A stretch of 22,423 nucleotides of DNA from a virus, in the IMG/VR virus record IMGVR_UViG_3300033149_005714, positions 1 through 22,423 of that record, one strand, 5' to 3'. The translations under genes were made by a program, and so were the position numbers. Positions 1 through 22,423 of this stretch are shown piece after piece. Under the pieces are notes generated by a model, which saw nothing but the letters and a program-made list of their open reading frames with translations, did not search any database and was not told the DNA's origin. How positions within the stretch are numbered: the stretch's first letter is position 1; every line of letters begins with the position of its first letter.

Positions 1-1
1 A

Positions 2-3000: not shown

Positions 3001-3279
3001 AGTTCCGAATCATCTTCAAGCAGTAGTTCTGAAAGTTCAAGTTCATCAAGTAGTGAATCTAGCTCAAGTTCTAGTAGTGAGAGTTCAAGTTCATCTAGTA
3101 GTGAGAGTTCATCAAGTAGTGAGAGTTCATCAAGCTCAAGTTCCGAGAGTTCTTCAAGCAGTAGTTCCGAGAGTTCATCAAGCTCAAGTTCCGAGAGTTC
3201 TTCAAGCAGTAGTTCAGAAAGTTCTTCAAGTTCAAGTAGTGAGAGTTCTTCCAGCTCAAGTTCTGAATCTAGTTCAAGT
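2..3279 (+). repeat. Low-complexity Ser/Glu coding tract 1
   Basis: The protein pattern is Glu every 6 or 8 residues in poly-Ser. Larger modules are superimposed on it. A unit encoding SKSSETFSSSSSESSSTSS recurs at about 149, 1169 and 2015, with a degraded copy near 2550 that keeps only its second half. After copies 1 and 2, the stretch at 293-333 recurs at 1313-1353, which indicates segmental duplication of a few hundred bases. Confidence 0.9.
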
Positions 3280-3645
3280 GATGTATTTGGTAAAGTATGG
3301 GGTTATGAAACACCTATAGGTAATAAAGGATTGCCATGGGATAATTGGAAGTTTAAAGAATCTGCTGTGGATGCTAGATATGATTCAAGTTATGGTGTAT
3401 TAAAAATAAGATTAGATGAAGAGTTTGTAAGCCCTGTGGTTGATTTTGGATCAAGTGAAACAAGATACTTAATTACTGATTATGATACTTATGATACAGG
3501 ACTCGGATCTGGTACAATTCAATGGAGAGGACATAATACAACATCATTTAACCAAGATGATGATGAAGTTAGTGGACCGACTTGGGAAAACTATGGTGCT
3601 GGTAATAAAGATTGGAGATATGCACAATTAAAGGTAACAGGTTAA
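2..3645 (+). CDS. Giant Ser/Glu-repeat protein 1, probable phage fibre/adhesin (5' partial, one frame break)
   Basis: The gene enters from the left edge with codons starting at position 2. It encodes runs of 5-7 Ser separated by single Glu, for about 1,090 residues. A non-repetitive C-terminal domain of about 120 residues follows from position 3280 (begins DVFGKVWGYETP) to the stop at 3643-3645. That domain is rich in alternating hydrophobic, Trp and Asp residues and looks like a beta-sandwich of the kind seen at fibre tips (inference). All six Ser codons are mixed, so the tract is kept at protein level and is not simple DNA slippage. Near 2545 the Ser frame moves by -1; the alternative frames give only Val/Leu/Gln-rich or Asn/Leu-rich nonsense. 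A long Ser/Glu stalk carrying a terminal domain fits host binding. Glycosylation or phosphorylation of the stalk is possible but unsupported. Confidence 0.8.
2540..2556 (+). other. Apparent -1 frame break in Ser/Glu protein 1
   Basis: Upstream codons begin at positions equal to 2 mod 3. From 2548 the Ser/Glu reading is in 1 mod 3. The local text tcaagtgtagttcaag would be restored by one A (agt agt agt tca). It may be a sequencing or assembly deletion, or a real lesion. Confidence 0.75.
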
Positions 3646-3649
3646 GGAT

Positions 3650-4014
3650 ATGAAACAAGAGTTAATAGATGGAATTATACTTTTAATTAAAAATCTTCCA
3701 GAATGGGGGAAAAGACAAAAAGTTACTATTCTTTTAGGTATGGAGTCTTTTGTTTCATATTTACCAACAGAAAGAATAATTAGAATTAAGACAGTAAGAT
3801 GTGATTTTTGTGGAGCTTGTTGTATGGAATTACCACCCAATAGTAATTTTCTTTTGGTATTGACGATGAAGGTAAATGTAATGTTCTTTATAAAGATAGA
3901 GATGGCACATGGAAATGTGGTGCAAAATATAATAAACCATATAGATGTCTTGGCGATCCGTCAAAAAGAAACACACCAGAATGTTGTATAGAATATTTGG
4001 AGATTAAAGTATAA
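3650..4014 (+). CDS. Small CxxCxxCC (YkgJ-like) zinc/iron-chelating protein, one frame break
   Basis: Restoring one base gives a 121-residue protein. It has C51-x2-C54-x2-C57-C58, then Cys at 77, 90 and 100 and a Cys pair at 112-113. The CxxCxxCC cluster followed by a C-x(9)-C segment with a Lys-Pro-Tyr-Arg-Cys core resembles the YkgJ family of putative zinc- or iron-chelating proteins, whose function is poorly known. The frame changes at 3846-3855, where T4 in aattttctttt would need to be T5. Beyond the break the reading GIDDEGKCNVLY to the TAA at 4012-4014 is clearly coding and supplies the remaining Cys residues, so the join is well supported. The ATG lies 4 bases after the stop of Ser/Glu protein 1, and the next gene's ATG follows this stop directly. 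This suggests co-expression with the two fibre-like genes, perhaps for their modification or maturation (inference). Confidence 0.7.
3845..3856 (+). other. Apparent -1 frame break in YkgJ-like gene (homopolymer T)
   Basis: Frame 2 carries the N-terminal half and frame 1 the Cys-rich C-terminal half. Adding one T to the T4 run restores N-S-N-F-S-F-G-I-D-D. Confidence 0.75.
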
Positions 4015-7000
4015 ATGGCTAATTATTATCTTGAAGATCATGGTACGGCTAAATTAGGTGAAACTAATTATACCTTGCAAGATACGCTGCTACTGCTTGT
4101 AATAAAGATACAGAAACTTCACATGAATATAGACTAGAGTTTAGTGAGGACGGTGGTGCGTGGACACCTGTTGGTGCCGCTACAGCTATTGCTTGGGGTT
4201 CGACTTCAATAACTACACCTGCAGTTCAAACCACTACTCAGTTATGTGGTGCTGTTGATGTTAGTGATGTTTACACTAATACTGATTCAGATAATTCAAT
4301 TACTGCCGGTGAAGTTTTGTCAGGGGCAGATGCTGAATTTCAATGGATGCTTAATCTTGATAATGCCAATATTAGTAGTGTTTATACATTTCAAGTTTAT
4401 TGTGTTACTGATACAGTAGTTTTAAATAATACAATTAACTCAACAATAACAATTGAAGCAGATAGTTCAAGCAGTAGTTCTGAAAGTTCTAGCTCATCAG
4501 AAAGTTCTTCAAGCAGTAGTTCTGAATCATCTTCAAGCAGTAGTTCTGAAAGTTCTTCCAGCTCAAGCTCTGAAAGTTCAAGTTCATCAGAATCATCTTC
4601 CAGCTCAAGTTCTGAAAGTTCTTCAAGCAGTAGTTCTGAATCATCTTCAAGCAGTAGTTCTGAAAGTTCTAGCTCATCAGAAAGTTCTTCCAGCTCAAGT
4701 TCTGAAAGTTCTTCAAGCAGTAGTTCTGAAAGTTCTTCAAGCAGTAGTTCTGAAAGTTCTAGCTCATCAGAAAGTTCTTCCAGCTCAAGTTCTGAATCAT
4801 CTTCAAGTTCTGAATCATCTTCAAGCTCAAGTTCTGAGAGTTCAAGCTCATCAAGTAGTGAATCAAGTTCAAGTAGTGAGAGTTCTTCAAGTTCAAGTTC
4901 AGAAAGTTCTTCAAGTTCTAGTTCTGAATCATCCAGTTCTTCAGAAAGTTCTAGTTCAAGTTCTTCTGAAAGTTCTTCAAGCAGTAGTTCTGAAAGTTCA
5001 AGTTCATCAGAATCATCTTCCAGCTCAAGTTCTGAATCTAGCTCAAGTAGTGAATCATCTTCAAGCAGTAGTTCTGAAAGTTCTTCCAGCTCAAGTTCTG
5101 AAAGCTCATCAAGTTCAAGTTCTGAAAGCTCATCAAGTTCAAGTTCTGAAAGCTCATCAAGTTCAAGTTCTGAATCTAGCTCAAGTAGTGAGAGTTCTAG
5201 TAGTGAGAGTTCCAGTTCATCCAGTAGTGAGAGTTCATCAAGCAGTAGTTCTGAGAGTTCATCAAGCAGTAGTTCTGAGAGTTCATCCAGTTCTAGTTCA
5301 GAAAGTTCTTCCAGCTCAAGCTCTGAAAGTTCGTCAAGTTCAAGTAGCGAATCAAGTTCAAGTAGCGAATCTTCAGCTATTATTGAATCAAGTTCTAGTT
5401 CTTCTGAATCATCAAGTTCTAGTTCTTCAGAATCTAGCTCAAGTTCTACGTCTTCTATATCAAGTTCACAAAGCTCAAGTTCTGAAAGTTCAAGCTCAGA
5501 GGGTTTTACATGGATAATTGAAGATATATTATTTGATGAAGGTACTGAATCAAGTAGTTCTAGTTCTGAAAGTTCAAGTTCATCAAGTAGTGAATCAAGT
5601 TCAAGTAGTGAAAGTTCTTCCAGCTCAAGTAGTGAATCTTCAAGTTCTTCAAGCTCTGAGAGTTCAAGTAGTGAATCTTCAAGTTCTTCAAGCTCTGAGA
5701 GTTCAAGTAGTGAATCTTCAAGTTCTTCAAGTAGTGAATCATCTTCAAGCAGTAGTTCTGAGAGTTCACTTCAAGTTCAAGTAGTGAATCTTCAAGTTCA
5801 TCAAGTAGTGAATCTTCAAGTTCATCAAGTAGTGAATCTTCAAGTTCATCAAGTAGTGAATCTTCAAGTTCATCAAGTTCAAGTTCTGAATCTAGCTCAA
5901 GTTCTAGTAGTGAGAGTTCAAGTTCATCAAGTAGCGAGAGTTCAAGTTCTTCAAGCTCGGAAAGTTCTTCAAGTTCAAAATCAAGCACAGCATTTAGTAG
6001 TTCAAGTTCTGAATCATCCTCAACAAGTTCTGAAAGCTCTGAATCATCAAGTTCAAGCTCGGAGAGTTCTAGTTCATCAAGCTCGGAAAGTTCTAGTTCA
6101 TCAAGCTCAGAAAGTTCATATAGTTCAAGTTCTGAGAGTTCTTCAAGTAGTGAGAGTTCATCAAGTTCAAGTAGTGAGAGTTCATCAAGTTCAAGTAGTG
6201 AGAGTTCATCATCGGAAAGTTCAAGTTCATCAAGTTCTGAGAGTTCTTCAAGCTCAAGTAGTTCAGAAAGCTCAAGTTCATCAAGTAGTGAATCATCTTC
6301 AAGTAGTGAATCATCTTCAAGTTCAAAATCAAGCACAACATTTAGTAGTTCAAGTTCTGAATCTAGCTCAACAAGTTCTGAAAGTTCAAGTTCTAGTAGT
6401 CAAAGTTCTGAAAGTTCGTCAAGTTCCAGTTCTGAGAGTTCGTCAAGTTCCAGTTCTGAGAGTTCATCAAGTAGTGAATCATCAAGTTCTAGTTCTTCAG
6501 AATCATCAAGTTCTAGTTCTTCAGAATCATCTAGTTCTAGTTCTAGCTCTGAAAGTAGAGTTCTTCCAGCTCAAGTTCAGAAAGTTCATCAAGCAGTAGT
6601 TCTGAAAGTTCATCAAGCAGTAGTTCTGAATCATCAAGCAGTAGTTCAAGTGAATCATCAAGCTCAGAAAGTTCATCTAGCTCAAGTTCTGAATCATCAA
6701 GTTCAGAAAGTTCATCAAGCAGTAGTTCAGAAAGTTCATCAAGCAGTAGTTCAGAAAGTTCATCTAGCTCAAGTTCTGAATCATCAAGTTCAAGTTCTTC
6801 TGAAAGTTCCGAATCATCAAGTTCCGAATCAAGTTCTAGTTCAAGTTCACAATCGTCTTCAAGCAGTAGTTCTGAGAGTTCTTCCAGTTCAGGTTCTTCT
6901 GAATCTTCCAGTTCAAGTAGTGAATCTAGCTCAAGTAGTGAATCTAGTTCAAGTAGTGAATCTAGTTCAAGTAGTGAATCTAGTTCAAGTAGAACATTTA

Positions 7001-7677
7001 GTTCATCTAGTTCTTCTAAATCATCAAGCTCAAGCTCAGAAAGTTCTTCAAGTAGTGAAAGTTCGTCAAGTTCCAGTTCTGAAAGTTCTTCTATATCAAG
7101 TTCTGAAAGCTCTAGTTCGTCTTCAGAATCAAGTTGGAGCAGTGAATCTAGTTCTTCACAAATACCAAAAATAATAAAGCCAATAATTGGCGATGGCCTA
7201 GATAAACAAGGAAAAACGGAAACAATAATTGGCGATGGCCTAGATAAACAAGGAAAGGCAGAAACAATAATTGGCCAAGGTTTGGATAAACAAGGAAAAA
7301 CGGAAACAATAATTGGCGATGGCCTAGATAAACAAGGAACGGCAGAAACAATAATTGGCGATGGCCTATATAAACAAGGAAAAACGGAAACAATAATTGG
7401 TGATGGGCTTGATAAACAAGGAACGGCAGAAACAATAATTGGTGATGGGCTTGATAAACAAGGAACGGCAGAAACAATAATTGGCCAAGGTTTGGATAAA
7501 CAAGGAACGGCAGAAACAATAATTGGCCAGGGTTTGGATAAACAAGGAACGGCAGAAACAATAATTGGCCAGGGTTTGGATAAACAAGGAAAAACGGAAA
7601 CAATAATTGGTGATGGTATAAATAAACAAAGAAAAACTGGAACAATAATTGGTCAAGGTTTAGATAAAATTAGATAA
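4015..7677 (+). CDS. Giant Ser/Glu-repeat protein 2 with 14-residue C-terminal repeats, probable phage fibre/adhesin (frame breaks)
   Basis: With three frame corrections this is about 1,221 residues. The N-terminal 150 residues (start MANYYLEDHG) are non-repetitive, Thr/Ala/Asp-rich and probably beta-structured, including HEYRLEFSEDGGAWTPVG and EFQWMLNLDNANIS. They could be the virion-attachment part. A Ser/Glu tract of about 900 residues follows (4464-7158). It is interrupted once by a hydrophobic-acidic insert (5499-5549, GFTWIIEDILFDEGTE). After the linker QIPKIIKP the protein ends in twelve IIG[DQ]GLDKQG[KT][TA]ET repeats. Frame breaks lie near 4086, 5769 and 6558, each acting as a one-base loss, and the same protein pattern continues across each. 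The start is an ATG directly after the previous TAA. Orientation and architecture match the first Ser/Glu gene, so the two are probably partners in one appendage (inference). A surface adhesin other than a tail fibre is an alternative. Confidence 0.78.
4083..4092 (+). other. Apparent -1 frame break in Ser/Glu protein 2 (N-terminal domain)
   Basis: The reading MANYYLEDHG... runs in frame 1 to D-T. It continues as A-A-T-A-C-N-K-D-T-E in frame 0. One extra G in gatacgctgct (acg gct gct) joins the two parts. Confidence 0.72.
5765..5776 (+). other. Apparent -1 frame break in Ser/Glu protein 2
   Basis: The Ser/Glu reading is in frame 0 to about 5768 and in frame 2 from 5771. agttcacttcaag becomes regular with one extra T (tca tct tca agt). 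Confidence 0.72.
6551..6564 (+). other. Apparent frame break in Ser/Glu protein 2
   Basis: The Ser/Glu reading moves from frame 2 to frame 1 at gaaagtagagttc. Loss of four bases from agt gag agt, or of one base, would explain it. Confidence 0.65.
7183..7674 (+). repeat. 42-bp tandem repeats encoding 14-residue units (11 full and one partial)
   Basis: Eleven full copies of IIGxGLDKQGxxET and a final 10-residue copy ending in DKIR precede the stop. Variation is confined to few positions: D/Q at position 4, KT/TA at 11-12, and synonymous choices at Gly-Leu (ggccta, gggctt, ggtttg) that travel in blocks. Unit 5 has Y for D. Unit 11 is the most divergent (GDGINKQRKTGT). Such near-identical copies expand and contract easily by recombination. 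Confidence 0.93.
7617..7624 (+). promoter_or_regulatory. Candidate T4-type late promoter octamer inside repeat unit 11
   Basis: TATAAATA matches the T4 late promoter -10 consensus exactly and lies 82 bases before the ATG at 7706. It is created by the two substitutions that make unit 11 unlike its neighbours (L to I, D to N). The octamer is expected several times by chance in DNA this AT-rich, so support is weak. Confidence 0.3.
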
Positions 7678-8563: not shown

Positions 8564-9037
8564 ATGAAAGATTTACTAGAAAGATTATATGAGGCAATTG
8601 TTGTTGGTAATTATCCAGATGATGGGTCTACTGGCATTGCTGGTGATGATGATAACCCACCTGGAAATATTGTTTATGGTGAGAAGTATAAGAAAACTAA
8701 TGACTATTTCAATAAACTTACAAATTTTAAAACTCAATATAAAACAGATTTAAGTAATTGGTATTGGGATGAGTTTGAAAGTTCTATAGGTATGGAAGAT
8801 CCAAGGAATTATTCATCTACATTAGATAGTATGGAAGATAGATTGCCTGGTTTATGGGGTCATGTAAAAAGAAGTGTTCCAGATGCTGAAAGAAAGGCTG
8901 ATTTAAGAAAAATGAAAAAAGAAATTCCAGATGAACCACTAGGTGATGAAGAAGAAGAATCAGCAGAAGATGAGTTAGATGATAGTGTTATATTAAATAG
9001 AATAGATAAGTATATGGAGAAACGATGGAAACTATAG
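8564..9037 (+). CDS. Hypothetical acidic phage protein
   Basis: 157 residues, not recognised. It begins MKDLLERLYEAIVV. The LYE-A could be a weak version of the leader seen in block 5, but the spacing differs and I do not rely on it. The middle is Tyr/Trp/Asp-rich (NWYWDEF). Residues 122-145 are strongly acidic (GDEEEESAEDELDD), and the end is a short basic helix. Its 3' end overlaps the next gene by 13 bases and supplies that gene's GGAG ribosome site. No catalytic motif is visible. Confidence 0.7.
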   Translation: MKDLLERLYEAIVVGNYPDDGSTGIAGDDDNPPGNIVYGEKYKKTNDYFNKLTNFKTQYKTDLSNWYWDEFESSIGMEDPRNYSSTLDSMEDRLPGLWGHVKRSVPDAERKADLRKMKKEIPDEPLGDEEEESAEDELDDSVILNRIDKYMEKRWKL

Positions 9038-9330
9038 AAAAATATTTAATTGAAAGAAATCCAGGTGGTTCGGCAAAACCAGGAAAATATACAAGTAAGC
9101 TAGTAAAAATAGACAAAAAATTGAAAAAAAATGTAAATGAACTAAAAAAACTTATATATACCATTGATGCTGGTGTACATACTGATAGAAATCGTAATCA
9201 TGTTCACGATATTGATAGATTTATTGAGAAAAAAATGATGCTTATTTATGGAGAATTAGAATCTTTTGAAGATCAAATTAATAATCTTACACCAGATTTT
9301 GGAAAGCTTACTAGAAGATCTGGGTTTTAA
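9025..9330 (+). CDS. Small basic helical protein with IEKYLIE leader
   Basis: 101 residues starting METIEKYLIERN. The leader ends in L-I-E at residues 8-10 and resembles the MAKIEKYLNE start of the gene at 18773-19036. Both are small, Lys-rich and probably helical, so they may be distant paralogues or merely share the leader. The body has a Lys-rich helix (residues 25-45), a D-R-N-R-N-H-V-H-D segment near 55-63 that could bind metal or nucleic acid (speculative), and a C-terminal helix. The start is set by GGAG 5 bases upstream, inside the preceding gene. The form is like T4 internal head proteins, which are small, basic and carry a short cleaved leader; function is otherwise unknown. Confidence 0.7.
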   Translation: METIEKYLIERNPGGSAKPGKYTSKLVKIDKKLKKNVNELKKLIYTIDAGVHTDRNRNHVHDIDRFIEKKMMLIYGELESFEDQINNLTPDFGKLTRRSGF

Positions 9331-9353: not shown

Positions 9354-9848
9354 ATGCCAAAATTTAAAGAATTTGCAGATAATGTTTATACAGTTCCAAT
9401 GATAAATAAAGAAAAATCTAAGAAGATGAATCCTAAAACTAATAGGATGAAAACATCAAAGAAAACAAAATTTCATACAACAGAAGTAAAACCAGAAGAT
9501 AGAACATTCAAAAATATACCAAAATATTCTACAGGCAAAAACAAGGTCAGATTTCAAGATTGGTTACTAATAAAAGGTGAAAAAACAAAACAAGATCATA
9601 GTGCTAATTCAATAGGATATTCTGAGGCTGATGGAAAATATTATGGATGGTCACATCGTGCTGTGAGTGGTTTTAAAGCAGGTGATGAGGTAAAGGGTGA
9701 TGATCATTTAGGCAAGAAGGTTGAATATCCTAAACTACCAAATGGAAATACAGATTTTGATAATGGCAAGTATGAAAAAGATTTTACAATCAAAAATATG
9801 GCGCATGCAAAAGAAGTAGCAACTACTTTTGCAAGCAATGTTTCTTAG
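9354..9848 (+). CDS. Conserved phage protein of unknown function (YGWSHRAV motif)
   Basis: 164 residues with GAGGGG 5 bases before the ATG. The first half is Lys/Thr-rich and probably extended. The second half has a block Y-Y-G-W-S-H-R-A-V-x-G-F-K-x-G-D (about residues 99-114), which I associate with a conserved hypothetical family in large phages, and a final helix rich in Ala and Lys. The start MPKFKEFAD recalls the capsid-targeting-like leader of other genes here but lacks the final Glu. The gene converges on the minus-strand gene at 9845 with a 4-base overlap, and no terminator hairpin is visible between them. Confidence 0.65.
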   Translation: MPKFKEFADNVYTVPMINKEKSKKMNPKTNRMKTSKKTKFHTTEVKPEDRTFKNIPKYSTGKNKVRFQDWLLIKGEKTKQDHSANSIGYSEADGKYYGWSHRAVSGFKAGDEVKGDDHLGKKVEYPKLPNGNTDFDNGKYEKDFTIKNMAHAKEVATTFASNVS

Positions 9849-10255
9849 TCATTTGCAGCATCTTCATAACCCTCACTATAACCTTTTTCATAACCATTAT
9901 CATAACCCTCACTATAACCTTCTTCGTGTCCATCAGAATGTCCTTCACTATAACCATCAGAATGTCCTTCATCATAACCATTAGAATGTCCATCATTCAT
10001 ACCTTCATTCACACCATCACTGAACCCATTTTCATATATATCATTTCTTTCATCTTCAGAAACATTATTTTCTTTTAAAGATTCTTTATATCCAATACAT
10101 TCACCATCTTCTATTCCTAAATAGTAAACAAAATCTATTACCTCTTCTATAATATCATATTGTTCTTGTGATCGAGCGATTCGTTTTATATTTATTTTCA
10201 AATCTTCATAACCAAGTTTTTTTCTTTTAGATTCGTCTATTATTTCTTTTAACAT
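9845..10255 (-). CDS. Protein with 14 tandem GxxxG-type tetrapeptides
   Basis: I prefer the ATG at 10255 (MLKEIIDESKRKK), because AAAAGG lies 9 bases upstream. An in-frame ATG at 10264 would have the same AAGG directly against it. The first 75 residues are helical and charged. The C-terminal region is 14 consecutive tetrapeptides G-[YHFVM]-x-[EDNK], such as GYSE, GHSD and GYDE, just before the end. Serial GX3 repeats occur in Yae1-type proteins (deca-GX3) and allow tight helix packing; here they may mediate oligomerisation. The alternating Tyr/His face could also bind metal or nucleic acid (speculation). It is the last gene of the replication operon, 13 bases after the polymerase C part. Confidence 0.7.
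   Translation of the reverse strand: MLKEIIDESKRKKLGYEDLKINIKRIARSQEQYDIIEEVIDFVYYLGIEDGECIGYKESLKENNVSEDERNDIYENGFSDGVNEGMNDGHSNGYDEGHSDGYSEGHSDGHEEGYSEGYDNGYEKGYSEGYEDAAND
9860..10027 (-). repeat. 12-bp imperfect tandem repeat encoding GxxxG tetrapeptides
   Basis: Fourteen in-frame copies of a 12-base unit, read on the minus strand as G-(Y/H)-(S/D/E)-(E/D/N). The copies vary at wobble positions and in the third and fourth residues. Confidence 0.85.
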
Positions 10256-10268
10256 ATTAAACATCCTT

Positions 10269-11138
10269 TTAAAAAAATAGATTTATTTTTTTCTTTGTAT
10301 TTTCTCTTAATAGTTTTTCCTTATTCATTGGTTCTAGAAGTGTATTGATTTTCTTCAAAAAGAATTTTTCAATCATTTTATTTGTATCGAAGCTAACAAC
10401 CTTTTCAAATTCTTTTGGCCAGTTATTAAATGTTATTGATTCTATATTATATGCATTTTTCTTAACATATACAACTCTGGCCTTCATTCCTTCATGAATA
10501 TCTTCATATTTATCTTCTAGTTTTAGCTCTTTTAATAGCATTCTATAATTATGAACACCTTTTATATGCCAAGGTGTTCCTTTTATTGGAAAACCAGTTC
10601 CTAAATATTTTTCTAATTTGTTTATTCCTATATTAGCTGATAAATCTTCTGGATGAAGTTTTTTTAGTTGCTTCTTATATACTTGTATTTGTTCGCTTAT
10701 TTTATCATCTGGGTGCTGTTTTAAAATCATTTCCAAAAGTTTTTTTAACATTGGTCTTACAGCTTGTGCTGTATCTGATCTAACAATTTCAAGTCCAGTT
10801 ACGGAAATTTTATCAGCGGGTGTTCCTTCATCATCAACAACCCAGTAGGCATATTTTTTCTTTTTAATGAATAATGCTGATCTAGCAATAATCTCTTGTT
10901 TAAAACCAATTTTAAAATCTTTTACTTGTGAGTTATAATCATTCTTTTGTGTTTCATTAAAGATTCTTTTATTTATATTATCTTCTATTTCTTTAGATAT
11001 TCTTTTTACATATTCTATTTTTTTATCACTATCCAAATTAAACCATTTATTTTTATCATTTATATTATTAATGATAAAGTTTTCGATGCCTATATAGCAC
11101 GAATCCGTGTCTCCGTAAATTATGAAGTCTTTATTCAT
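10269..11138 (-). CDS. 43B: Family B DNA polymerase, C-terminal part (motif C and thumb)
   Basis: 289 residues starting MNKDFIIYGDTDSCYIG. YGDTDS is polymerase motif C, with two metal-binding Asp. The order of the rest follows T4/RB69 gp43: a Lys/Tyr-rich stretch KKKKYAYWV near residue 94, G-L-E-I-V-R-S-D, then WHIKGVHNYRMLLKEL like the T4 thumb FHIRGV block. The end, INLFF, resembles the beta-clamp-binding tail of gp43. It lacks the exonuclease and motifs A and B, which are on the preceding gene in the same frame; only one TAA separates them (GAG TAA ATG). GGAG 9 bases before this ATG fits a real restart. A two-subunit polymerase is the simplest reading. TAA readthrough or a sequence error cannot be excluded. 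Confidence 0.88.
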   Translation of the reverse strand: MNKDFIIYGDTDSCYIGIENFIINNINDKNKWFNLDSDKKIEYVKRISKEIEDNINKRIFNETQKNDYNSQVKDFKIGFKQEIIARSALFIKKKKYAYWVVDDEGTPADKISVTGLEIVRSDTAQAVRPMLKKLLEMILKQHPDDKISEQIQVYKKQLKKLHPEDLSANIGINKLEKYLGTGFPIKGTPWHIKGVHNYRMLLKELKLEDKYEDIHEGMKARVVYVKKNAYNIESITFNNWPKEFEKVVSFDTNKMIEKFFLKKINTLLEPMNKEKLLRENTKKKINLFF

Positions 11139-12893
11139 TTACTCAATCTCCAGTATAATATTTTCTAATTCTTTATTTGGATTGTTTAATAATTCATTAA
11201 TAAAACGTTCGCCTTCTTTAATTGTATGGCGACCACAACTTGTGATAGCTTCGGACATATTAATATTAAAGTATCGCGAATATGGTACAGATGTAGCACC
11301 AAATACAGCGTTTAGCCAAATTTTAAGTGCCCATTGAAATGAAAACAGTTCTTGTGCTCTTTCCAAAACTCCTTCTTTTTCTTTTCCATCATGCATTTGT
11401 GATGCTTGATTTCTTAAATCTCTCATTAATGTTTTTATTTCCTTACGTTTAAAGAACACTTCTCTTTCAACTTCTGATATTACACCTATCTTTGATGTAG
11501 AGAATATAGATCCACAAGGAGCAATTGCTATCAACCCTTTTTTTAAAACCTTATTAAAGTTAGTTAGTTTTTTATCTTCCATTTTCACAATGCCAGAATT
11601 TTCTTTAAACATATCAAATGGCATAAATTCTTTATTCTTAACACATTCAATAATATAACTTTCTTTGAGGCCCATTATTCTTCCAATATATGTTTCAACA
11701 GACATATTAAGAGCTATAATATGTGATGGATAAGAAGATGTGATATCAACAGATGTCACCCAATTATGCATTCCTTTTTGTGGATCTTTTACATAAGCGG
11801 CTTCAAATGTTTCTTGTGTTCCACCCATAAAAATAGGAGCACATAAATTTTTTCTTCTGAAATATACTAACATAGCACCTTCAATTAATTGTGTCATTAC
11901 ATTATAATATTTCATTGGTGTTTTTGTTAATAATGATAGTGATTGTACGAGCTTTATATATCCAAGCTTATCTTCTAGTTGACGAACTCTTTCACAATCT
12001 ATTATATTATATTCAACATATTTATTCCAGTTTTTATTAAATAGTTCATTGAGACTACTATATTCTGAATAATCTAACTTACCGACACCAAGTTCTATTT
12101 CTGAAATATACCCTAGTTGATAATTCTCTGGTTTATTTGGCGAATACCATTTATATATACTATAGTAATCAAGTATACAAACACCGGCTATATCTATATT
12201 GAGCTCATCACTATTTTTTTGTTTCCATGTTTTAACAATTTTCACTGGAGACATTAAAACATGTGGACTATTTTTAAATAATATTTTTGATCTATTTATT
12301 ATATAGGGTAAATCAAAGTTCCATATGTTCCATCCAGATAAAACATCACAGGGGTTTCTATGTATATAAAGAAAAAACTTTTTTAGTAAATCTTTTTCAT
12401 CTTCACATTTTATAAATTCAACATTTTCTTTATTTCCAGTATATTCTTTTATACCAAATGACATTACTTTTTTCTTTATATTATCACTAAAAGAAATAAT
12501 TGTAATTGGATCAATTGGTTTTTTTGAATTTGGAAATCCTTTACTAGTCAGAACTTCTATATCAATGGAATAAATTTTAAGATCTGGTACAACTACCTCA
12601 TCATCTGGTATATCATAATATCGTTCAGTTAAAAACTGGATTTCTGGTCTGACTTTATTTTCATAACAAGTATTATTTGATTGAAAGTTATAATAATCAT
12701 GATAAGTATGAAAATCTTTTTTCATAACTGGTATATTGTCTATTGTTTTTGCATTTGCTCTATCTCCAATAGATTTTATAAAAACATATGGAACCCATTG
12801 AAATTTATCATATAAATCTTTGCCGTTTACTTGTTCCCATATATGTACTGTCGATTGACGAGTATTATAATAAACATTCTTAAAAATTTTAAC
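11139..12893 (-). CDS. 43A: Family B DNA polymerase, N-terminal part (exonuclease, motifs A and B)
   Basis: About 584 residues. Positions here count from the codon at 12893. Exonuclease motifs are DIE (about 110-112), GWNIWNFD (about 187) and Y-N-I-I-D (about 295). Polymerase motif A is SVDITSSYPS (about 381-390), and motif B is K-x3-NAVFGA near 524-533. The first ATG in frame is at 12725, but coding clearly extends upstream: VKIFKNVYYNTRQSTVHIWE matches the usual N terminus of T4-like polymerases (M-K-F-Y-K-N-V-Y). That stretch begins with GTT at 12893, not a normal start codon. GGGGG at 12896-12900 is only 2 bases away from it. ATT at 12887 has good 8-base spacing, and one lost G would make a TTG. 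The gene follows uracil glycosylase without a gap and ends by stop-restart at the C part. Confidence 0.88.
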   Translation of the reverse strand, partial: VKIFKNVYYNTRQSTVHIWEQVNGKDLYDKFQWVPYVFIKSIGDRANAKTIDNIPVMKKDFHTYHDYYNFQSNNTCYENKVRPEIQFLTERYYDIPDDEVVVPDLKIYSIDIEVLTSKGFPNSKKPIDPITIISFSDNIKKKVMSFGIKEYTGNKENVEFIKCEDEKDLLKKFFLYIHRNPCDVLSGWNIWNFDLPYIINRSKILFKNSPHVLMSPVKIVKTWKQKNSDELNIDIAGVCILDYYSIYKWYSPNKPENYQLGYISEIELGVGKLDYSEYSSLNELFNKNWNKYVEYNIIDCERVRQLEDKLGYIKLVQSLSLLTKTPMKYYNVMTQLIEGAMLVYFRRKNLCAPIFMGGTQETFEAAYVKDPQKGMHNWVTSVDITSSYPSHIIALNMSVETYIGRIMGLKESYIIECVKNKEFMPFDMFKENSGIVKMEDKKLTNFNKVLKKGLIAIAPCGSIFSTSKIGVISEVEREVFFKRKEIKTLMRDLRNQASQMHDGKEKEGVLERAQELFSFQWALKIWLNAVFGATSVPYSRYFNINMSEAITSCGRHTIKEGERFINELLNNPNKELENIILEIE

Positions 12894-16360: not shown

Positions 16361-17824
16361 ATGAATAATGTAAGAATATCAAATCACAATCAAATGCAAA
16401 TCAAAATCAATACAGAGAGTAAAGAGTACATTTCTGGTATGAAAGAGTTGTTTACTCAATATGTAGAAGGATTTCAGTATATGCCACAATACCGCAGCGG
16501 CTCATGGTCAGGAAAAACATGTATGATTACAAATTTTCACAACACTCTACCATATGGTTTACTAGTTGATCTAATAAAATTTCATAAAAAACATTTCTCA
16601 CGTTTTCATTTATCTATAGATGATGATGTTAAAGTATTTTTCAAAGGCCCATCACTTAAAGTTAAGAATAATCTGTCATTAAAACCAAGATTCTATCAAA
16701 AAGAAAGTATAAGAATATGTTTGGATAGAACAAAGGGTATTATTAGATCAGCAACAGCCTCAGGTAAATCACTAGTAATATCATATATAATAAAGACTTT
16801 ACTAGAGAATAAAAATATCACAAATGTTGATAGAGTATTACTATTCGTCCCGACTGTAAGCCTAGTAGAGCAATTTTATAATGATATGATAGAATATGGA
16901 ATGGATGAAAAACTAATAGGTAGAGTATATTCAAAGAAAAAAGAATGGGATACACCTATTACTATATCTACATGGCAATCACTAATGAATAATCATGACA
17001 AATTACCAAACTATGATTGTATAATAAGTGATGAGGTGCATCAAGCTAAATCACATGAGCTTAAAAAAATATTAGTTAAAGCTGTAAAAGCTAACTATAG
17101 ATTGGGGTTCACAGGCACTCTTCATTCTAGTGAGCTTGATAATTGGAATGTTAAATCATATTTAGGCCCTGTGTTAAAAGAATATTCATCTGGTTTTCTA
17201 GCAGAAAAGGGTTTTATAAGTAAATGTAATGTACATATATTAGGAGTTGAATATAAAGATGAAAATATTGATGGAACTTATGATGAAGTTAAAGATATTA
17301 TATTCACTAATAGATCAAGAATTAATATTGTTAGTGATCTTATTAATAGGCTTGATCATAACGTTTTGGTTCTAGTTGGTAAAGTGGAAAAGGAAGGCGA
17401 TTTCTTACTTGATGAATTAAAAGAAAAAAATATAAACAAAGAAGTTGTGTTTCTTTCTGGACGAGATAGTGTAGAAGATAGAGAAAAGTGGCGAGCTGAA
17501 ATGATGGATAGAAACGATATTGCTTTAATTGCAACGTATGGTATATTTGCTCAAGGTATTAATATTCCAAATTTAAAGTATACTATACTTGCTTCTCCAT
17601 TCAAAGCTAAAATAAGAATACTACAATCAATAGGCAGAAATTTACGAATACATGAAAATAAAAAACATGGAGCACATATATTTGATATATATGACCATGT
17701 TAAATATCTTGAAAAACATGGGGTTGTGAGATATAGATTTTACGATAGTGAAAAATTCAGTATAAATGAATATGATCTGAAAGAGGGTGTTGATTTTGAT
17801 TTCTCACAACTTATTCTGAAATAG
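16361..17824 (+). CDS. uvsW: UvsW-like ATP-dependent DNA/RNA helicase
   Basis: 487 residues. T4 UvsW is an SF2 helicase that unwinds R-loops and branched DNA, ending origin-dependent replication and promoting recombination-dependent replication. Motifs: ATASGKS (131-137, motif I), VPT (about 163, Ia), SDEVH (223-227, motif II), FTGTL (250-254, motif III), TYG...GIN (about 392-401, motif V) and QSIGRNLR (422-429, motif VI). About 100 residues before the helicase core match the size of the T4 UvsW N-terminal domain. The length is close to T4 UvsW. ATG follows the uvsY stop directly, with GGAG upstream. The 3' end overlaps the convergent minus gene by 14 bases. Confidence 0.92.
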   Translation: MNNVRISNHNQMQIKINTESKEYISGMKELFTQYVEGFQYMPQYRSGSWSGKTCMITNFHNTLPYGLLVDLIKFHKKHFSRFHLSIDDDVKVFFKGPSLKVKNNLSLKPRFYQKESIRICLDRTKGIIRSATASGKSLVISYIIKTLLENKNITNVDRVLLFVPTVSLVEQFYNDMIEYGMDEKLIGRVYSKKKEWDTPITISTWQSLMNNHDKLPNYDCIISDEVHQAKSHELKKILVKAVKANYRLGFTGTLHSSELDNWNVKSYLGPVLKEYSSGFLAEKGFISKCNVHILGVEYKDENIDGTYDEVKDIIFTNRSRINIVSDLINRLDHNVLVLVGKVEKEGDFLLDELKEKNINKEVVFLSGRDSVEDREKWRAEMMDRNDIALIATYGIFAQGINIPNLKYTILASPFKAKIRILQSIGRNLRIHENKKHGAHIFDIYDHVKYLEKHGVVRYRFYDSEKFSINEYDLKEGVDFDFSQLILK

Positions 17825-18776
17825 TGACAAATTTGAACATATGATCTTTTTCAAAGTCTAATTTCTTTTGGCTGAAATCTGGTTTCATTGGACTACCAAG
17901 TAAAAAATGATTAGTTAATATATTATCAGGCGCAGCATCTATTAGAAAATATTCTTTACATTTAAAGGTTACTTCAACTTTTGATGAATGTGCCTTTCTT
18001 AAATTTTTATCAGTGTAACCATTAATATAATAATCAAGATTGCTGGTTATTTCATCATACCTATTTTCTGTTTTTTCATCAATATATTCACTAAAAGTTA
18101 TTTCTGGCATCCATTCAAATAAAGAATCATCGACCATAAGATCTGCTTCGTCTTCGTCTTCAGCATCACCATCATCAATCACATTACGTATAATCTGATT
18201 TTTTGCATCATCCAATTGTGATTCCATTGTATCATCATTATCATAATACCATGAGCCGCCAGCAGTGTCCTCACCAAATTCCCATTCCCATTCATTCTCT
18301 ATGCTACCATCATTTAAAAAATCGTCCCTAATAATTTCTCTATCTGGTATACTCCCTATATTATCATCTATTTCACCAAATAAATCATCTATACGTGGAT
18401 TATAAACAAATTTATACTTCTTTCCTATTGGTAGAAATATTCCTATTTGGCCATAATTTTTTGCACTACTTTTCCTTGATGTTGCAAACACGCCTTCGCT
18501 ACGCGGCCGCCATCCAAATTCATTATAGAATTGATCATCAAGATATTCTTGCATTTCTTCATCCATATCCACTGTACGTCTATCTTTTCGTGGCTTAATT
18601 TTCACCAGTTTTTTATCATCAAGTCTAGTTCTAGATCCTCTATAAAACCAATCATCTAAACCAACTCTCTTCATATGTTTTATAAAAGGCATACAATATT
18701 TTTCTATAACATTTATAATACCATATAGTTTAAGTTCATCTTTTTCTTTTTCAGTTATATATTGTTGAATTTTCAT
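17811..18776 (-). CDS. Leader-bearing protein with ADP-ribosyltransferase-like features
   Basis: 321 residues, start MKIQQYITEKE, carrying the capsid-targeting-like leader (I-T-E at 7-9). The region 41-130 has FYRGSR (R46), a run of basic and acidic residues, then RSEGVFATSRKSSAKNYG (92-109), then an F-L-P-I-G-K-K-Y-K-F strand. An early Arg, a later [ST]-x-S strand and a C-terminal Glu strand are the order of R-S-E type ADP-ribosyltransferases. Here the candidate Glu is in the KCKEYFLID strand near the C terminus. This is inference: the Glu assignment is uncertain and I know the family only as a conserved phage protein. The middle (about 150-230) is very acidic. A packaged ART would parallel T4 Alt, which is injected and modifies host RNA polymerase. 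ATGA overlap with the gene upstream. Confidence 0.6.
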   Translation of the reverse strand: MKIQQYITEKEKDELKLYGIINVIEKYCMPFIKHMKRVGLDDWFYRGSRTRLDDKKLVKIKPRKDRRTVDMDEEMQEYLDDQFYNEFGWRPRSEGVFATSRKSSAKNYGQIGIFLPIGKKYKFVYNPRIDDLFGEIDDNIGSIPDREIIRDDFLNDGSIENEWEWEFGEDTAGGSWYYDNDDTMESQLDDAKNQIIRNVIDDGDAEDEDEADLMVDDSLFEWMPEITFSEYIDEKTENRYDEITSNLDYYINGYTDKNLRKAHSSKVEVTFKCKEYFLIDAAPDNILTNHFLLGSPMKPDFSQKKLDFEKDHMFKFVTISE

Positions 18777-19036
18777 GATCTAAAATGATCATTTATATCT
18801 TCTAGTTTTTCCATAACATATCCAAGATCACCAACATATCCCCAATCCAAGGGTTTCTTAGAGAAACCTTTCTTATGTTTCTTTAACTTTGTAGTAATTG
18901 ATTTTAAAAGCTTTTCTATTTCTTTCTCATTCTTTTTATATCTTTCTACTGCTGATTCTTTCTTACCATAAACCATTGAATCCATATCCATACCAACTAC
19001 ATTTTTCTCATTTAAATATTTTTCTATTTTAGCCAT
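18773..19036 (-). CDS. Small Lys-rich protein with IEKYLNE leader, candidate internal head protein
   Basis: 87 residues from the ATG at 19036 (MAKIEKYLNEKN), chosen because GGGAG lies about 8 bases upstream; an ATG five codons earlier contains that ribosome site. The leader ends in L-N-E (8-10). The body is basic and helical, with a long Lys/Glu amphipathic helix (about 30-60, KKNEKEIEKLLKSITTKLKK), a K-K-P-L-D-W-G-Y turn and a final helix. Size and composition resemble T4 internal proteins (about 10 kDa, basic, packaged with the DNA), but no sequence match is claimed. It overlaps the next gene (ATGA). Confidence 0.7.
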   Translation of the reverse strand: MAKIEKYLNEKNVVGMDMDSMVYGKKESAVERYKKNEKEIEKLLKSITTKLKKHKKGFSKKPLDWGYVGDLGYVMEKLEDINDHFRS

Positions 19037-19077
19037 TTTATATACTCCCATATTTTTTAATTAAACCATCAACGTTC

Positions 19078-19770
19078 TTATGCTTTAGGTTTGTTCCCTA
19101 TTGCTGCTCCATATGATCTACCCATTTTAAGCAATGTCTTAATATCTAATGGAATGAACAATGCTTGCATTTTCAAATTTGGATCTGTCAGCATTACTTG
19201 TCCATGTCTATGATGCCCATCTAATATATATTTTTCTTTAGATACTATTACAGTAGTTCTTAAAACAGGGGAACCAGATTTGGGAGCGCCAAATTTTTTA
19301 ATATTACCTACTAACTTCTCTAGCCATACTTGACCCTGTAAAAGCTTTAATTTCTTTCCGGATATAGTAGTCCATTTAGCAAGAATCTTATCATCTTCTG
19401 GATTACCATCTTTTTGACCTAACTTCACCCACTTCTTACCTTCCTTCTTATTGAGATCAGTTGGAAATAATTCTTTACCTAATGCGTAAGGTTTGAATAT
19501 ATCTATTTCTCCTTTTTCCAATCTCTTATCAAATGTCTTCATATCATTTGGTTCTATAACAGGCATTTGTATTCTTGGTATATCCAATGATTCATTCTTA
19601 TATAATTTTTGAAGAATCATGTAGTTCTTATCAAAATCTGGAATTGATTCATTTAGTACTTCTACACTTCCAAATGTTTTTTCGGCATATGCCCTTGCTT
19701 TATCTAACGGTATATTTGCAACATTAAGATTATAGTTTCCACCCTCTATTAAATATTCTTGAAATCTCAT
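19078..19770 (-). CDS. ParB/sulfiredoxin-fold protein with capsid-targeting-like leader
   Basis: 230 residues, start MRFQEYLIEGGN. DGHHRHG at 184-190 matches the D-G-x-H-R signature of the ParB/Srx superfamily, which holds ATPases, nucleases and kinases as well as DNA-binding proteins. IPRIQMPVI near 64-72 resembles the strand that starts the domain. A long insert (about 90-165) separates them, so the fold is expanded. Residues after the motif (ALFIPLDI, then a Lys/Gly tail) complete the domain. Whether it cuts, binds or modifies nucleic acid is unknown. The leader (L-I-E at 7-9) is separate from the domain. It lies 4 bases after the CCA enzyme stop with GGAG 9 bases before the ATG. Confidence 0.75.
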   Translation of the reverse strand: MRFQEYLIEGGNYNLNVANIPLDKARAYAEKTFGSVEVLNESIPDFDKNYMILQKLYKNESLDIPRIQMPVIEPNDMKTFDKRLEKGEIDIFKPYALGKELFPTDLNKKEGKKWVKLGQKDGNPEDDKILAKWTTISGKKLKLLQGQVWLEKLVGNIKKFGAPKSGSPVLRTTVIVSKEKYILDGHHRHGQVMLTDPNLKMQALFIPLDIKTLLKMGRSYGAAIGNKPKA

Positions 19771-19774
19771 TTTG

Positions 19775-21208
19775 TTACGCTCCGTATTTTCTAATTAAGT
19801 TATCAATCGTTTCTTTGTCATCAACATCAATATTGTCATCCATAATTTTCTCAGTAACCTTTCTAATAATTTCACCAACTTTTGGTCCTGGTCCGATTCC
19901 TAATATTTCCATAACCCTATCACCATCAACAATTTTAAGCTGTTTATTGACGACTTTCATGCCGAATTTCTCTTTGATCTTAATGGCCTTATCAACGATT
20001 TTTTCAAACTCACCCTTGTACATAAATGCTTCGCCTCTTGAATATTCATCCGCTCGACCAACGGCAACCAATACATCCCAATCATCATCACTAACAAGTT
20101 TAGCAATTTTAGATGGTTTCATTTTCAAAATATCATGAAATTTCATATGGGCACCAACAGCAAATATAATAGCATTTCTTTCTTTATTACTCATTTTAAG
20201 TCTATCAGCTATTTGGTTTACTAGCTCTATACTCTTTCTAGCATGACCAAGATAACGAGGCAGCCCATTCTTATGTGAAAGAGTTACTCCTTTACCAACG
20301 TCATGAAGTAGGATTGCAATGTTTTTGATTGGGTTTTTTGTTTTGCTTGCTGATAAAGCTTTCATTACATGGGCATATACGGTTCCACCTTCTCCTCTTG
20401 TTTCAGGATGATGAACCAAATTTTCTCTATACCATTTAAGATTCATTACTTCTGGAAGTATAAATCTAAGTAGTTTTAAGTCAGCAAGTATTTGAATATA
20501 CTTGGCAAACTTATCACCAGATTGACTAGCTGCTTTAATCAGCTCTTCTCTCAAACGCTCTGCTGATAAATCCTGAATATTAGGTGAAAGTTTTTGTATG
20601 GCCTTTGTAGTATCTTTATCTATATCAAATCCAAGTTTCGCTGCGAATCTTGGTGCTCTCAACATTCTTAAATAATCTTCACCAAAACGTTCATAAGGAT
20701 TACCAACAGTTTTAAGAACTCTATTCTTTATATCTTTTTTACCATCGAAGTAATCTATGATCTCTCCTTTGGCATTAATACCCATAGCGTTTATAGTAAA
20801 ATCACGGCGACCGGCATCATCTTCAAATGATCCTGTTATAGTAATTGATTCTGGCCTACGACCATCACTATACTTACCATCGTTGCGAAACTGCGCGATC
20901 TCAAAATCAAATCCTTTATGTTTTATAACAACAATTCCGAAATCTCTTGATTTACCAACATCAAATGATCTCCATAATTTAGAAATCTCATCCATAGGCA
21001 TATTCGTGGCAATATCTATATCATGTGGCTTTAAATCACCAAGAACAATATCTCTTACAGATCCACCAACTATGTAAGCTTTGTATTTGGCTTTATTGAT
21101 TTTGTTCAAAACATCAACACCAGCAGCAAGTTCTTTATTAGTGGATATATATTTTTTCCATTGTTTTAACATTTCTTTAGCTTCTTTTATATATTGTGTT
21201 AGTCTCAT
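19775..21208 (-). CDS. cca: tRNA CCA-adding nucleotidyltransferase with HD domain and capsid-targeting-like leader
   Basis: 477 residues. It adds or repairs the CCA 3' end of tRNA. Seen: GGSVRD (48-53), DID (63-65, metal-binding Asp pair), RRDFTINAM (134-142), EDYLRMLRAPRFAAKLGF (177-194) and an HD domain with VHHPETRGEGGTVYAH (265-280), LLHDVGKG (300-307) and GH (321-322). This is the class II enzyme plus HD phosphohydrolase architecture of bacterial Cca. All catalytic residues I can check are intact, so it should be active. Unusual is the start MRLTQYIKEAKE, absent from bacterial enzymes as far as I know and shared with unrelated neighbours. The ATG overlaps the upstream stop (ATGA). Repair of tRNAs damaged by host anticodon or acceptor nucleases is a plausible role. 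Confidence 0.93.
   Translation of the reverse strand: MRLTQYIKEAKEMLKQWKKYISTNKELAAGVDVLNKINKAKYKAYIVGGSVRDIVLGDLKPHDIDIATNMPMDEISKLWRSFDVGKSRDFGIVVIKHKGFDFEIAQFRNDGKYSDGRRPESITITGSFEDDAGRRDFTINAMGINAKGEIIDYFDGKKDIKNRVLKTVGNPYERFGEDYLRMLRAPRFAAKLGFDIDKDTTKAIQKLSPNIQDLSAERLREELIKAASQSGDKFAKYIQILADLKLLRFILPEVMNLKWYRENLVHHPETRGEGGTVYAHVMKALSASKTKNPIKNIAILLHDVGKGVTLSHKNGLPRYLGHARKSIELVNQIADRLKMSNKERNAIIFAVGAHMKFHDILKMKPSKIAKLVSDDDWDVLVAVGRADEYSRGEAFMYKGEFEKIVDKAIKIKEKFGMKVVNKQLKIVDGDRVMEILGIGPGPKVGEIIRKVTEKIMDDNIDVDDKETIDNLIRKYGA
21181..21208 (-). repeat. Leader cassette copy A (cca gene)
   Basis: The first 28 bases of the gene encode MRLTQYIKE. They match copy B (21711-21738) at 27 of 28 bases, although the proteins that follow are unrelated. 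Confidence 0.9.
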
Positions 21209-21738
21209 GTGGTTTCCCAGAATATTTCAGCCCATTGCCCATCAAATCCAAATCCTTGTTTTAATTCACTACCAAATGTTTTCTTAAATAATTTCCAGTA
21301 TTCATTTACACTAACTTTATACCAAGGCCATCCATTACCAAAATCTTGACGCGGTGTTCCTTTACCCATATGCGTCCATACCATATCTGTATTTTTAAGT
21401 TTAATTGTCTTGTATAGTTTTTTAAACTTTCTATTTATTACTTTATTATCTAATCTTTCCATTTGATCAAATGGCAATTTATTGAATTCTTCTTGGCTCA
21501 TACCATATTCTTTTTTAAAGTCATTGTCCTTTATTCTAAGTCTATGTTTTTCTTTACCACCAACATATCCACCTAGAAAAGATAATTCATATTTTTTAGC
21601 TTGGACAGGTAACAACCATATACCCTTTCTAGCTGGTGCTTGATTATTATCTCTATGAGTTTGTTTTTGTCCAGACATCGAGCCTAAACGAATAAAAAAC
21701 TTATCAATGTCTTCTTTTATATAATGTGTTAGTCTCAT
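21205..21738 (-). CDS. Leader-bearing protein of unknown function
   Basis: 177 residues, start MRLTHYIKEDID (I-K-E at 7-9). I recognise no domain. After the leader come RLGSMSGQK, a P-A-R-K-G-I-W-L-L-P block (about 55-64), a Gly-rich LGGYVGGKEKHRLRIKD segment, and a C-terminal half rich in aromatic residues (WTHMG, WPWYKVSVNEYWKLF, GFGFDGQWAEIFW). No membrane segment is seen. The G-I-W-L-L-P and W-x-H-M-G pieces resemble those of conserved hypothetical proteins of T4-like marine phages as I recall them; a catalytic role is not evident. ATGA overlaps join it to both neighbours, so it is part of one transcription unit. Confidence 0.7.
   Translation of the reverse strand: MRLTHYIKEDIDKFFIRLGSMSGQKQTHRDNNQAPARKGIWLLPVQAKKYELSFLGGYVGGKEKHRLRIKDNDFKKEYGMSQEEFNKLPFDQMERLDNKVINRKFKKLYKTIKLKNTDMVWTHMGKGTPRQDFGNGWPWYKVSVNEYWKLFKKTFGSELKQGFGFDGQWAEIFWETT
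21711..21738 (-). repeat. Leader cassette copy B
   Basis: Encodes MRLTHYIKE. It differs from copy A by one base (the Gln/His codon region). Confidence 0.9.
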
Positions 21739-22265
21739 ATTTCCAACTTCCTCAATTGTTTTATAGTATCACTTGTATTCTTATGTAATATACCTATACC
21801 ACCCTTTGATTTCCATTGTCTTATATTTCTTTTATTATCATCTATAAGTACTGAATTTCCATCAGCATGATCTTGTTTTTGAATACCTAATACTACAAGA
21901 GATGTTCTAACGAATCCAGATCCAAGATGTTTATTTATCCATTTCTCTTTGCCTTCTATTGCAGAATGAACTGTTTTTGGTCTAGCTGTTAGAATTATAG
22001 GATCATATTTTTTTATATAGTTCCATAATTGTTTTCCATCATTAGTCCATTCTAGTTCAGACCAATATGATTCACCTATTTTTTTAACTTCATCCCAAAC
22101 ACCATTGTTAGTCATGTTTTTCTTTAACTTCCACCCACTCCAATCATCTACATTTGAATCAATTTTATCTTTTATGCCTCTAATAAAATCAACTAGTACA
22201 CCATCTAGATCACAATAGATTTTATACTCTTCTGATTTTTCTCTTATATAATTAGTTAGTCTCAA
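21735..22265 (-). CDS. HAD-superfamily 5'(3')-deoxyribonucleotidase-like protein with capsid-targeting-like leader
   Basis: 176 residues from a TTG at 22265 (leader MRLTNYIRE). It probably dephosphorylates deoxynucleoside monophosphates. HAD motifs are CDLDGVLVDF (18-27, nucleophile D19 and D21), ILTARP (91-96, motif II Thr), the Lys candidate in GKEKWINKHL (105-114, motif III) and VLIDDNKRNI (139-148, motif IV). Spacing and size fit the NT5C-type nucleotidase family. TTG is chosen because the leader then aligns exactly with copies A and B and because TTGA overlaps the upstream stop in the way the neighbours use ATGA. A role in supplying nucleosides or in attacking host nucleotide signals is possible; the leader suggests packaging (inference). 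Confidence 0.88.
   Translation of the reverse strand: MRLTNYIREKSEEYKIYCDLDGVLVDFIRGIKDKIDSNVDDWSGWKLKKNMTNNGVWDEVKKIGESYWSELEWTNDGKQLWNYIKKYDPIILTARPKTVHSAIEGKEKWINKHLGSGFVRTSLVVLGIQKQDHADGNSVLIDDNKRNIRQWKSKGGIGILHKNTSDTIKQLRKLEI
22239..22265 (-). repeat. Leader cassette copy C (nucleotidase gene)
   Basis: Encodes MRLTNYIRE from a TTG start. It matches copy A at 22 of 27 bases; two of the five changes fall in the fifth codon, one in the first base and one changes Lys to Arg. Confidence 0.85.
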
Positions 22266-22423
22266 TGATCCACGCCTGCTTTCTTTTCCATTTTTACCAA
22301 TCTTGTATAATAATCAGGTATTTCAGATAAATGATCTAATGCTATTTCTTTAGCTATTTCTTTTTTATTTGTATGCTCTAATTCTATTTTAATACCTAAT
22401 TTAAGTTCTTTAGGATCTGCGTC
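22262..22423 (-). CDS. DUF5661-like phage protein (5' partial)
   Basis: Only the last 53 codons are inside the window, up to the TGA at 22264-22262. The end LGIKIELEHTNKKEIAKEIA, then LDHLSEIPDYYTRLVKMEKKAG, matches my memory of DUF5661, a small all-helical family common in phages and of unknown function. The E-L-E-H-T and A-L-D-H-L-x-E-I-P-D-Y-Y segments are the family's most typical parts. The start, and whether it bears the shared leader, lie beyond the edge. The stop overlaps the TTG of the nucleotidase gene. Confidence 0.8.
   Translation of the reverse strand, partial: DADPKELKLGIKIELEHTNKKEIAKEIALDHLSEIPDYYTRLVKMEKKAGVDH

Follow-up and report, generated by a model that had tools for sequence, protein, structure and literature searches.

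A short N-terminal leader resembling the T4 capsid-targeting sequence on many unrelated proteins of an uncultured phage lineage

Why should a CCA-adding tRNA enzyme, a nucleotidase and several small proteins of one virus all begin with nearly the same nine or ten residues? The question is raised by the IMG/VR virus record IMGVR_UViG_3300033149_005714, a single fragmentary contig of 22,423 bases that was analysed over its whole length (the window) and from which head genes are absent. An open reading frame listing combined with a scan of start codons gives seven genes that start with the leader M-x(1-2)-[LFI]-x-x-Y-[IL]-x-E, all terminating in L/I-x-E; six of them are on the minus strand within 17811-22265 and one is on the plus strand at 9025-9330, where a preliminary description of the sequence had placed them. 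The same description took the leader for a capsid-targeting sequence of the type used by phage T4. We consider it very likely that the shared N-terminus is such a sequence, and that it serves docking, cleavage by a gp21-type protease and delivery of dozens of unrelated cargoes. The proteins bearing the tag would then probably form a large group of enzymes that travel with the particle and enter the host on infection.

The first point to settle is how often such starts would occur by chance. The strict consensus M[KR][LFI]xxY[IL]xE was set on the window by the earlier reader, before other genomes were examined. It was counted in the window, in a near-identical, longer sister contig (G001), in the contig G005, and in an independent relative of 161 kb (G008), which is 48-55% identical to the window in the DNA polymerase, the replicative helicase and another helicase and 71% identical in the CCA enzyme. 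When about 0.01 occurrences are expected from shuffled N-termini, the strict consensus is found at 5 gene starts in the window, 10 in G001, 8 in G005 and 20 in G008, and at no internal start codon in any of the four; for G008 this amounts to 20 N-terminal cases versus 0 among 1,571 internal ones (Fisher test, 1e-13), and for G005 to 8 versus 0 among 1,325. In T4 the strict consensus occurs neither N-terminally nor internally. A wider pattern, made broad enough to include T4 (M x(1-2) [LFIYVM] xx [YF][ILVM] x E), occurs at 7 starts in the window (0.04 expected from shuffles), 15 in G001 (0.09), 10 in G005 (0.5) and 31 in G008 (0.3), and the 3 starts that it finds in T4 include the internal head proteins IPII and IPIII, which serve as a positive control. 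Among 80 other loci with the same capsid lineage, 59 starts fit the wider pattern when 1.85 are expected, and the proteins concerned fall into 34 body clusters. Position-wise enrichment over all G008 genes, which presupposes no pattern, brings out K/R at position 2, Y at 6, L at 7 and E at 9. Since the wider pattern has no match in HTVC008M, ACP17, Cr30 or SPO1, and 2-3 matches each in KVP40, P-SSM2, phiM12 and CP81, a large tagged set is, by this pattern, not general to T4-like phages.

Two of these reference phages deserve a remark of their own. The hypothetical protein gp61.1 of T4 (NC_000866, gene 61.1, 18966-19130) starts MKTFKEFIKE and agrees with the capsid-targeting pattern at every position. 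Three proteins of the cyanophage P-SSM2 (L034/W04), of 86, 424 and 573 amino acids, start MKSFKQFLEE (100269-100529), MKSFSQFLTE (158143-159417) and MKSLSQFIIE (169737-171458), and from these starts they are likely to be capsid-targeted.

Consider now the seven genes themselves. On the minus strand, a 5'(3')-deoxyribonucleotidase (NT5C/HAD; 21735-22265) has a TTG start and the leader MRLTNYIRE (codons 22239-22265), with PF06941 beginning at residue 16; a 177-residue protein with no family assigned (21205-21738) has MRLTHYIKE (21712-21738); the CCA-adding tRNA nucleotidyltransferase (19775-21208) has MRLTQYIKE (21182-21208), with enzyme homology from about residue 30; a 230-residue protein with a ParB/DGHHR motif (phrog_2859; 19078-19770) has MRFQEYLIE (19744-19770); a small protein of 87 residues (18773-19036) has MAKIEKYLNE (19007-19036); and a 321-residue protein of the phrog_11975 family with YRG...RSEGVF...E motifs (17811-18776) has MKIQQYITE (18750-18776). 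On the plus strand, a small Lys-rich protein of 101 residues (9025-9330) has METIEKYLIE (9025-9054). The ATG at 19036, and not the start of the longer open reading frame at 19051, was taken as the start of the 87-residue gene because GGGAG stands directly upstream of this inner ATG. When the first 12 residues are removed, the seven bodies form seven separate clusters with no detectable mutual similarity, as expected from the earlier statement that these proteins share nothing beyond the leader. Pfam and PHROGs bear out the CCA enzyme, the nucleotidase and the ParB-like protein of the preliminary description, and assign phrog_11975 besides three small or unknown proteins; the CCA enzyme matches PF01743 (PolyA_pol head, E 8e-31), PF12627 (RNA-binding, E 4e-14) and solved CCA enzymes (E 1e-45).

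That the leader is separable from its cargo is seen when leader and body are compared in relatives, a comparison that had been proposed together with the original claim. The window nucleotidase and its L201 orthologue (MKFKQYIKE) both carry the leader, while the G005 orthologue, at 41% identity, is leaderless and starts MFEIFCDMDGV. The CCA enzyme keeps the leader in every relative for which the N-terminus is available (MRLTQYINE, MRFKRYLAE and MKFENYINE), while solved CCA enzymes and the CCA enzyme of Tunturi_5 begin downstream of it. The proteins L179/L181, whose bodies resemble the 230-residue ParB-motif protein, start MRFKKFLTE, and the Pfam domain of the sister contig's P-loop kinases starts at residue 16-19. 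In the AlphaFold model of the 17811-18776 protein, residues 3-8 of the leader have a predicted local distance difference test score (pLDDT) below 50, and the body is mostly above 85.

How close is this leader to that of T4? IPII and IPIII both have the N-terminus MKTYQEFIAE. When the window leaders are aligned with it from the Glu, their hydrophobic residue falls on T4 position 4, Tyr on 7, Ile/Leu on 8 and Glu on 10, so that in the 9- and the 10-residue forms alike L/F/I and Y/F are three apart and at the same distance from the Glu as in T4. Mutational work on the T4 leader has linked positions 4 and 7 with targeting and positions 8 and 10 with processing, the gp21 cleavage site being L/I-x-E (PMC9026906). 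Some 10-residue leaders of relatives, for example MKTFEKYLNE and MNTFEKYLTE, come near the T4 sequence itself. In T4, too, a short N-terminal leader is distributed over unrelated proteins cut by gp21, namely IPI, IPII and IPIII, in addition to the Alt propeptide, and the aromatic and hydrophobic residues three apart and the [IL]-x-E end are common to both systems. They differ in that the leader here usually has 9 residues and not 10 and begins MRL, MRF or MKF and not MKT, in that the wider pattern marks about 31 genes in one genome (G008) versus 3 in T4, and in that the cargo here belongs to tRNA, nucleotide, kinase, chaperone and protease families, whereas T4 carries small basic proteins.

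If the T4 scheme applies, the events would be as follows. The 9-10-residue leader would form a short amphipathic helix, the hydrophobic and aromatic face of which ([LFI]3, Y6, [IL]7) would dock late-made proteins onto a gp22-type scaffold core. The shell would close around the docked proteins, a gp21-type S77 protease would cut after [IL]-x-E and free the mature proteins inside the head, and these would enter the host along with the DNA. The tag would in this way serve dozens of unrelated proteins, among them the CCA enzyme, the nucleotidase, P-loop kinases, DnaJ, metallopeptidases, ParB-like proteins and small proteins. The docking partner, the cleavage, the packaging in this lineage and the delivery into the host are what we infer; what the sequences show is that many proteins with no kinship to each other carry a separable leader of the T4 pattern, and that their lineage encodes the machinery by which T4 matures its head.

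This machinery had been said to lie outside the window, and it is found in the same lineage. G008 encodes a Peptidase_S77 gp21, a T4_CASP gp22, gp23, gp20 and the large terminase (TerL), and gp21 is present too in 66 of the 80 contigs whose capsid gene is related. The interval between gp21 and gp22 is where head-core genes lie. Small leader-bearing genes occupy it in a number of the 80 contigs, and in G008 it holds a protein starting MNFEKYLTE together with two small proteins with looser versions of the leader. The capsid protein of the lineage has [LMI]-x-E at residues 40-42, with the Glu present in 80/80 sequences and the following residue variable, so that in sequence the motif ending at E42 behaves as expected for a gp23-type cleavage site. 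In G008, sites of the TATAAATA type occur upstream of structural genes that include gp20, gp22 and TerL. In G005, a late promoter of the TATAAATA type stands ahead of one operon of leader-bearing genes, of which the first starts MSRLETYVITE and is followed by two starting MRFKQYINE. A protease was sought in G005 and not found, but this contig holds no head genes at all, and the absence is therefore uninformative. With the T4 spacing and the key targeting and processing residues, the protease and scaffold of the lineage support the capsid-targeting claim, and packaging by means of the tag is a well-supported reading.

The cargo of the relatives extends the range seen in the window. Tagged proteins include kinases of the zeta-toxin/AAA_33 type, a SprT-like metallopeptidase, an HD-domain protein, a GNAT acetyltransferase, DUF5661 proteins, DnaJ domains in two phages, weak matches to an M78-type peptidase and a HAD phosphatase, and many unknowns; typical structural proteins are not among the identified cargo. 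The C-terminal part of a DUF5661 protein, truncated by the contig end, is encoded at 22262-22423 on the minus strand of the window. In the longer sister contig this protein starts MKLKQYLEAGE, which is leader-like with Ala at position 9, and the DUF5661 proteins of G008 and L004 have full leaders. One assignment of the preliminary description was not confirmed: the 17811-18776 protein had been labelled ADP-ribosyltransferase-like, but it has no Pfam match, and its model (pLDDT 83) has no fold match in the PDB at E <= 0.001. Its YRG, RSE and E motifs are conserved, and its matches in a viral library search are unnamed phage proteins. When viral contigs were scanned directly for homologues of this protein and of the one at 19 kb, the sister contig alone came up.

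A structure search with the 17.8-kb protein finds relatives in the Agrobacterium jumbo phage Atu_ph07, and the family profile matches its CDS54, 57 and 59-63 with E values down to 1e-32. Nearly every protein of CDS 53-63 starts M[KR]WxxL[TN]E, which is another leader, again with an L-x-E end. A pattern for this type of leader has 22 matches in the Atu_ph07 genome when 2.5 are expected, an excess that is less strict evidence because the pattern was written after three of the leaders had been seen. An S77 protease is also encoded. According to the available part of the published report, mass spectrometry identified 131 virion proteins, 29 of which come from CDS 31-76, and only two of these 29 had previously been predicted to be structural (PMC6102473); that part of the report makes no mention of the leader. 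The numbering was verified by row 70 of the record, a primase/helicase, which is gp70 of the paper. For a distantly related set of tagged proteins, this proteome lends packaging indirect backing. Atu_ph07 thus shares with the window lineage homologues of the 17.8-kb protein with an LxE leader, an S77 protease and a virion cluster rich in mass-spectrometric identifications; it differs by a leader of 8 residues that has Trp where Leu/Phe stands here, by cargo that is largely one expanded family, and by a genome of 490 kb. At 39484-50592 of its sequence (MF403008), paralogues of the 17.8-kb protein stand in a run, and all of them start with the M[KR]WxxL[TN]E leader; the one of 778 amino acids has a zeta-toxin domain by database name.

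Several facts weigh against packaging and delivery. The window and its nearest contigs are without head genes, so that the co-occurrence of protease and tag is observed in relatives only; in G008, a few genes with the tag are among tail-side genes and could mark something other than core cargo; a strong T4-type late promoter was not seen close before most tagged blocks; and the support from Atu_ph07 holds for the cluster CDS 31-76 and not per protein.

Of the other explanations, the one that survives best, though we hold it to be unlikely, is that the tag recruits scaffold proteins or assembly helpers to the prohead core, where they are degraded or retained in the head, without delivery of enzymes that act on the host. 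Several small tagged proteins are indeed encoded between gp21 and gp22, like gp67 and gp68 of T4, but many tagged enzymes have no head-building role (the CCA enzyme, the nucleotidase, kinases, metallopeptidase, DnaJ and acetyltransferase), and the T4 enzyme Alt, which is carried in the same way, is injected (PMC9026906). It is improbable that the leader sends proteins elsewhere, to the membrane, a host complex or a replication site, and that the resemblance to T4 is superficial. Enzymes of tRNA and nucleotide metabolism would also suit a site of replication or takeover, and some tagged genes of the window adjoin replication genes; yet what is conserved at the end of the leader coincides exactly with the protease site L/I-x-E, which the lineage's capsid protein keeps as well, tagged genes occur in the gp21-gp22 interval, and the Atu_ph07 homologues are within a virion cluster confirmed by mass spectrometry.

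Still less probable is a module at the level of DNA, a recombination or translation-start element that encodes the same peptide by happenstance. The codons used for identical residues agree somewhat more often than expected (0.58 versus 0.50 in G008, 0.81 versus 0.64 in G001 and 0.70 versus 0.60 in G005), and this moderate excess suggests that the leader has spread partly by recombination. But the flanks of leaders in different genes are unlike, and many leaders encode the same residues by different codons, from which it follows that conservation is at the level of the peptide; constraint is on the hydrophobic, aromatic and Glu positions, and the 9- and 10-residue forms align from the Glu, as would a peptide signal. 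Finally, although amphipathic N-terminal helices are common, the idea that each family simply has such a helix at its start, or that the likeness is due to chance, was rejected with hardly any doubt left, by the shuffle counts in the window and G008, the leaderless nucleotidase orthologue and the enzyme domains and CCA homologues that start past the leader.

The capsid-targeting leader also invites comparison with two other systems. In ejection proteins of the SPN3US/phiKZ type, N-terminal propeptides likewise direct proteins into the head and are then cut off by a prohead protease (PMC5694885), but these propeptides mostly exceed 100 residues and occur on few proteins. The polyvalent proteins of phages and plasmids bring together a similar set of enzymes (ADP-ribosyltransferase, metallopeptidase, ParB-like, kinases) that is thought to be injected early (PMC5512222), but they fuse many domains in one long chain, whereas here the enzymes are separate, each with its own short tag. 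The mechanism is already known from T4; what is new is how broad the cargo is and of what type, and that versions of the tag are specific to lineages. The literature searched, which did not extend to subscription papers, contains no earlier description of this leader for these phages.

The rest of the window may be described briefly. At 9354-9848 on the plus strand, a protein matches Tad6, an inhibitor of the Thoeris defence (E 3e-21); its start, MPKFKEFADN, and that of its G005 homologue, MKFDKFVDL, resemble the leader loosely. A protein of 139 residues at 9845-10264 on the minus strand consists mostly of a EGHSDGYSEGYDNGYE-type repeat. A Family B-type DNA polymerase at 10269-12725 on the minus strand is present as two abutting open reading frames of 528 and 289 residues; in G005 its two pieces are about 1 kb apart, and in G008 it is a single frame of 887 residues. 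Positions 1-7645 hold about 7 kb of low-complexity repeats, with Ser/Glu runs in one frame and long open frames in others too, and look like part of a giant tail or adhesin made of repeats.

For the biology of this uncultured T4-like lineage, we think it rather more probable than improbable that one modular N-terminal zip code loads about thirty different enzymes per type of virion, with roles in tRNA repair and nucleotide metabolism and as kinases, chaperones and proteases, that lineage-specific tags (MRLxxYIxE here, MRWxxLTE in Atu_ph07) match their own scaffold and protease, and that the injected proteome can be read from the sequence. Because the cargo proteins are unrelated to each other, the injected set is hard to find by homology, and if the proposal is true, the proteins that a phage injects at time zero could be listed from sequence only. 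A mechanism that serves a handful of proteins in T4 would be extended to the loading of dozens of cargoes encoded across a genome, more natural tags would be at hand for packing foreign proteins into phage heads, and the unknown tagged proteins would be probable factors of early host takeover or anti-defence.

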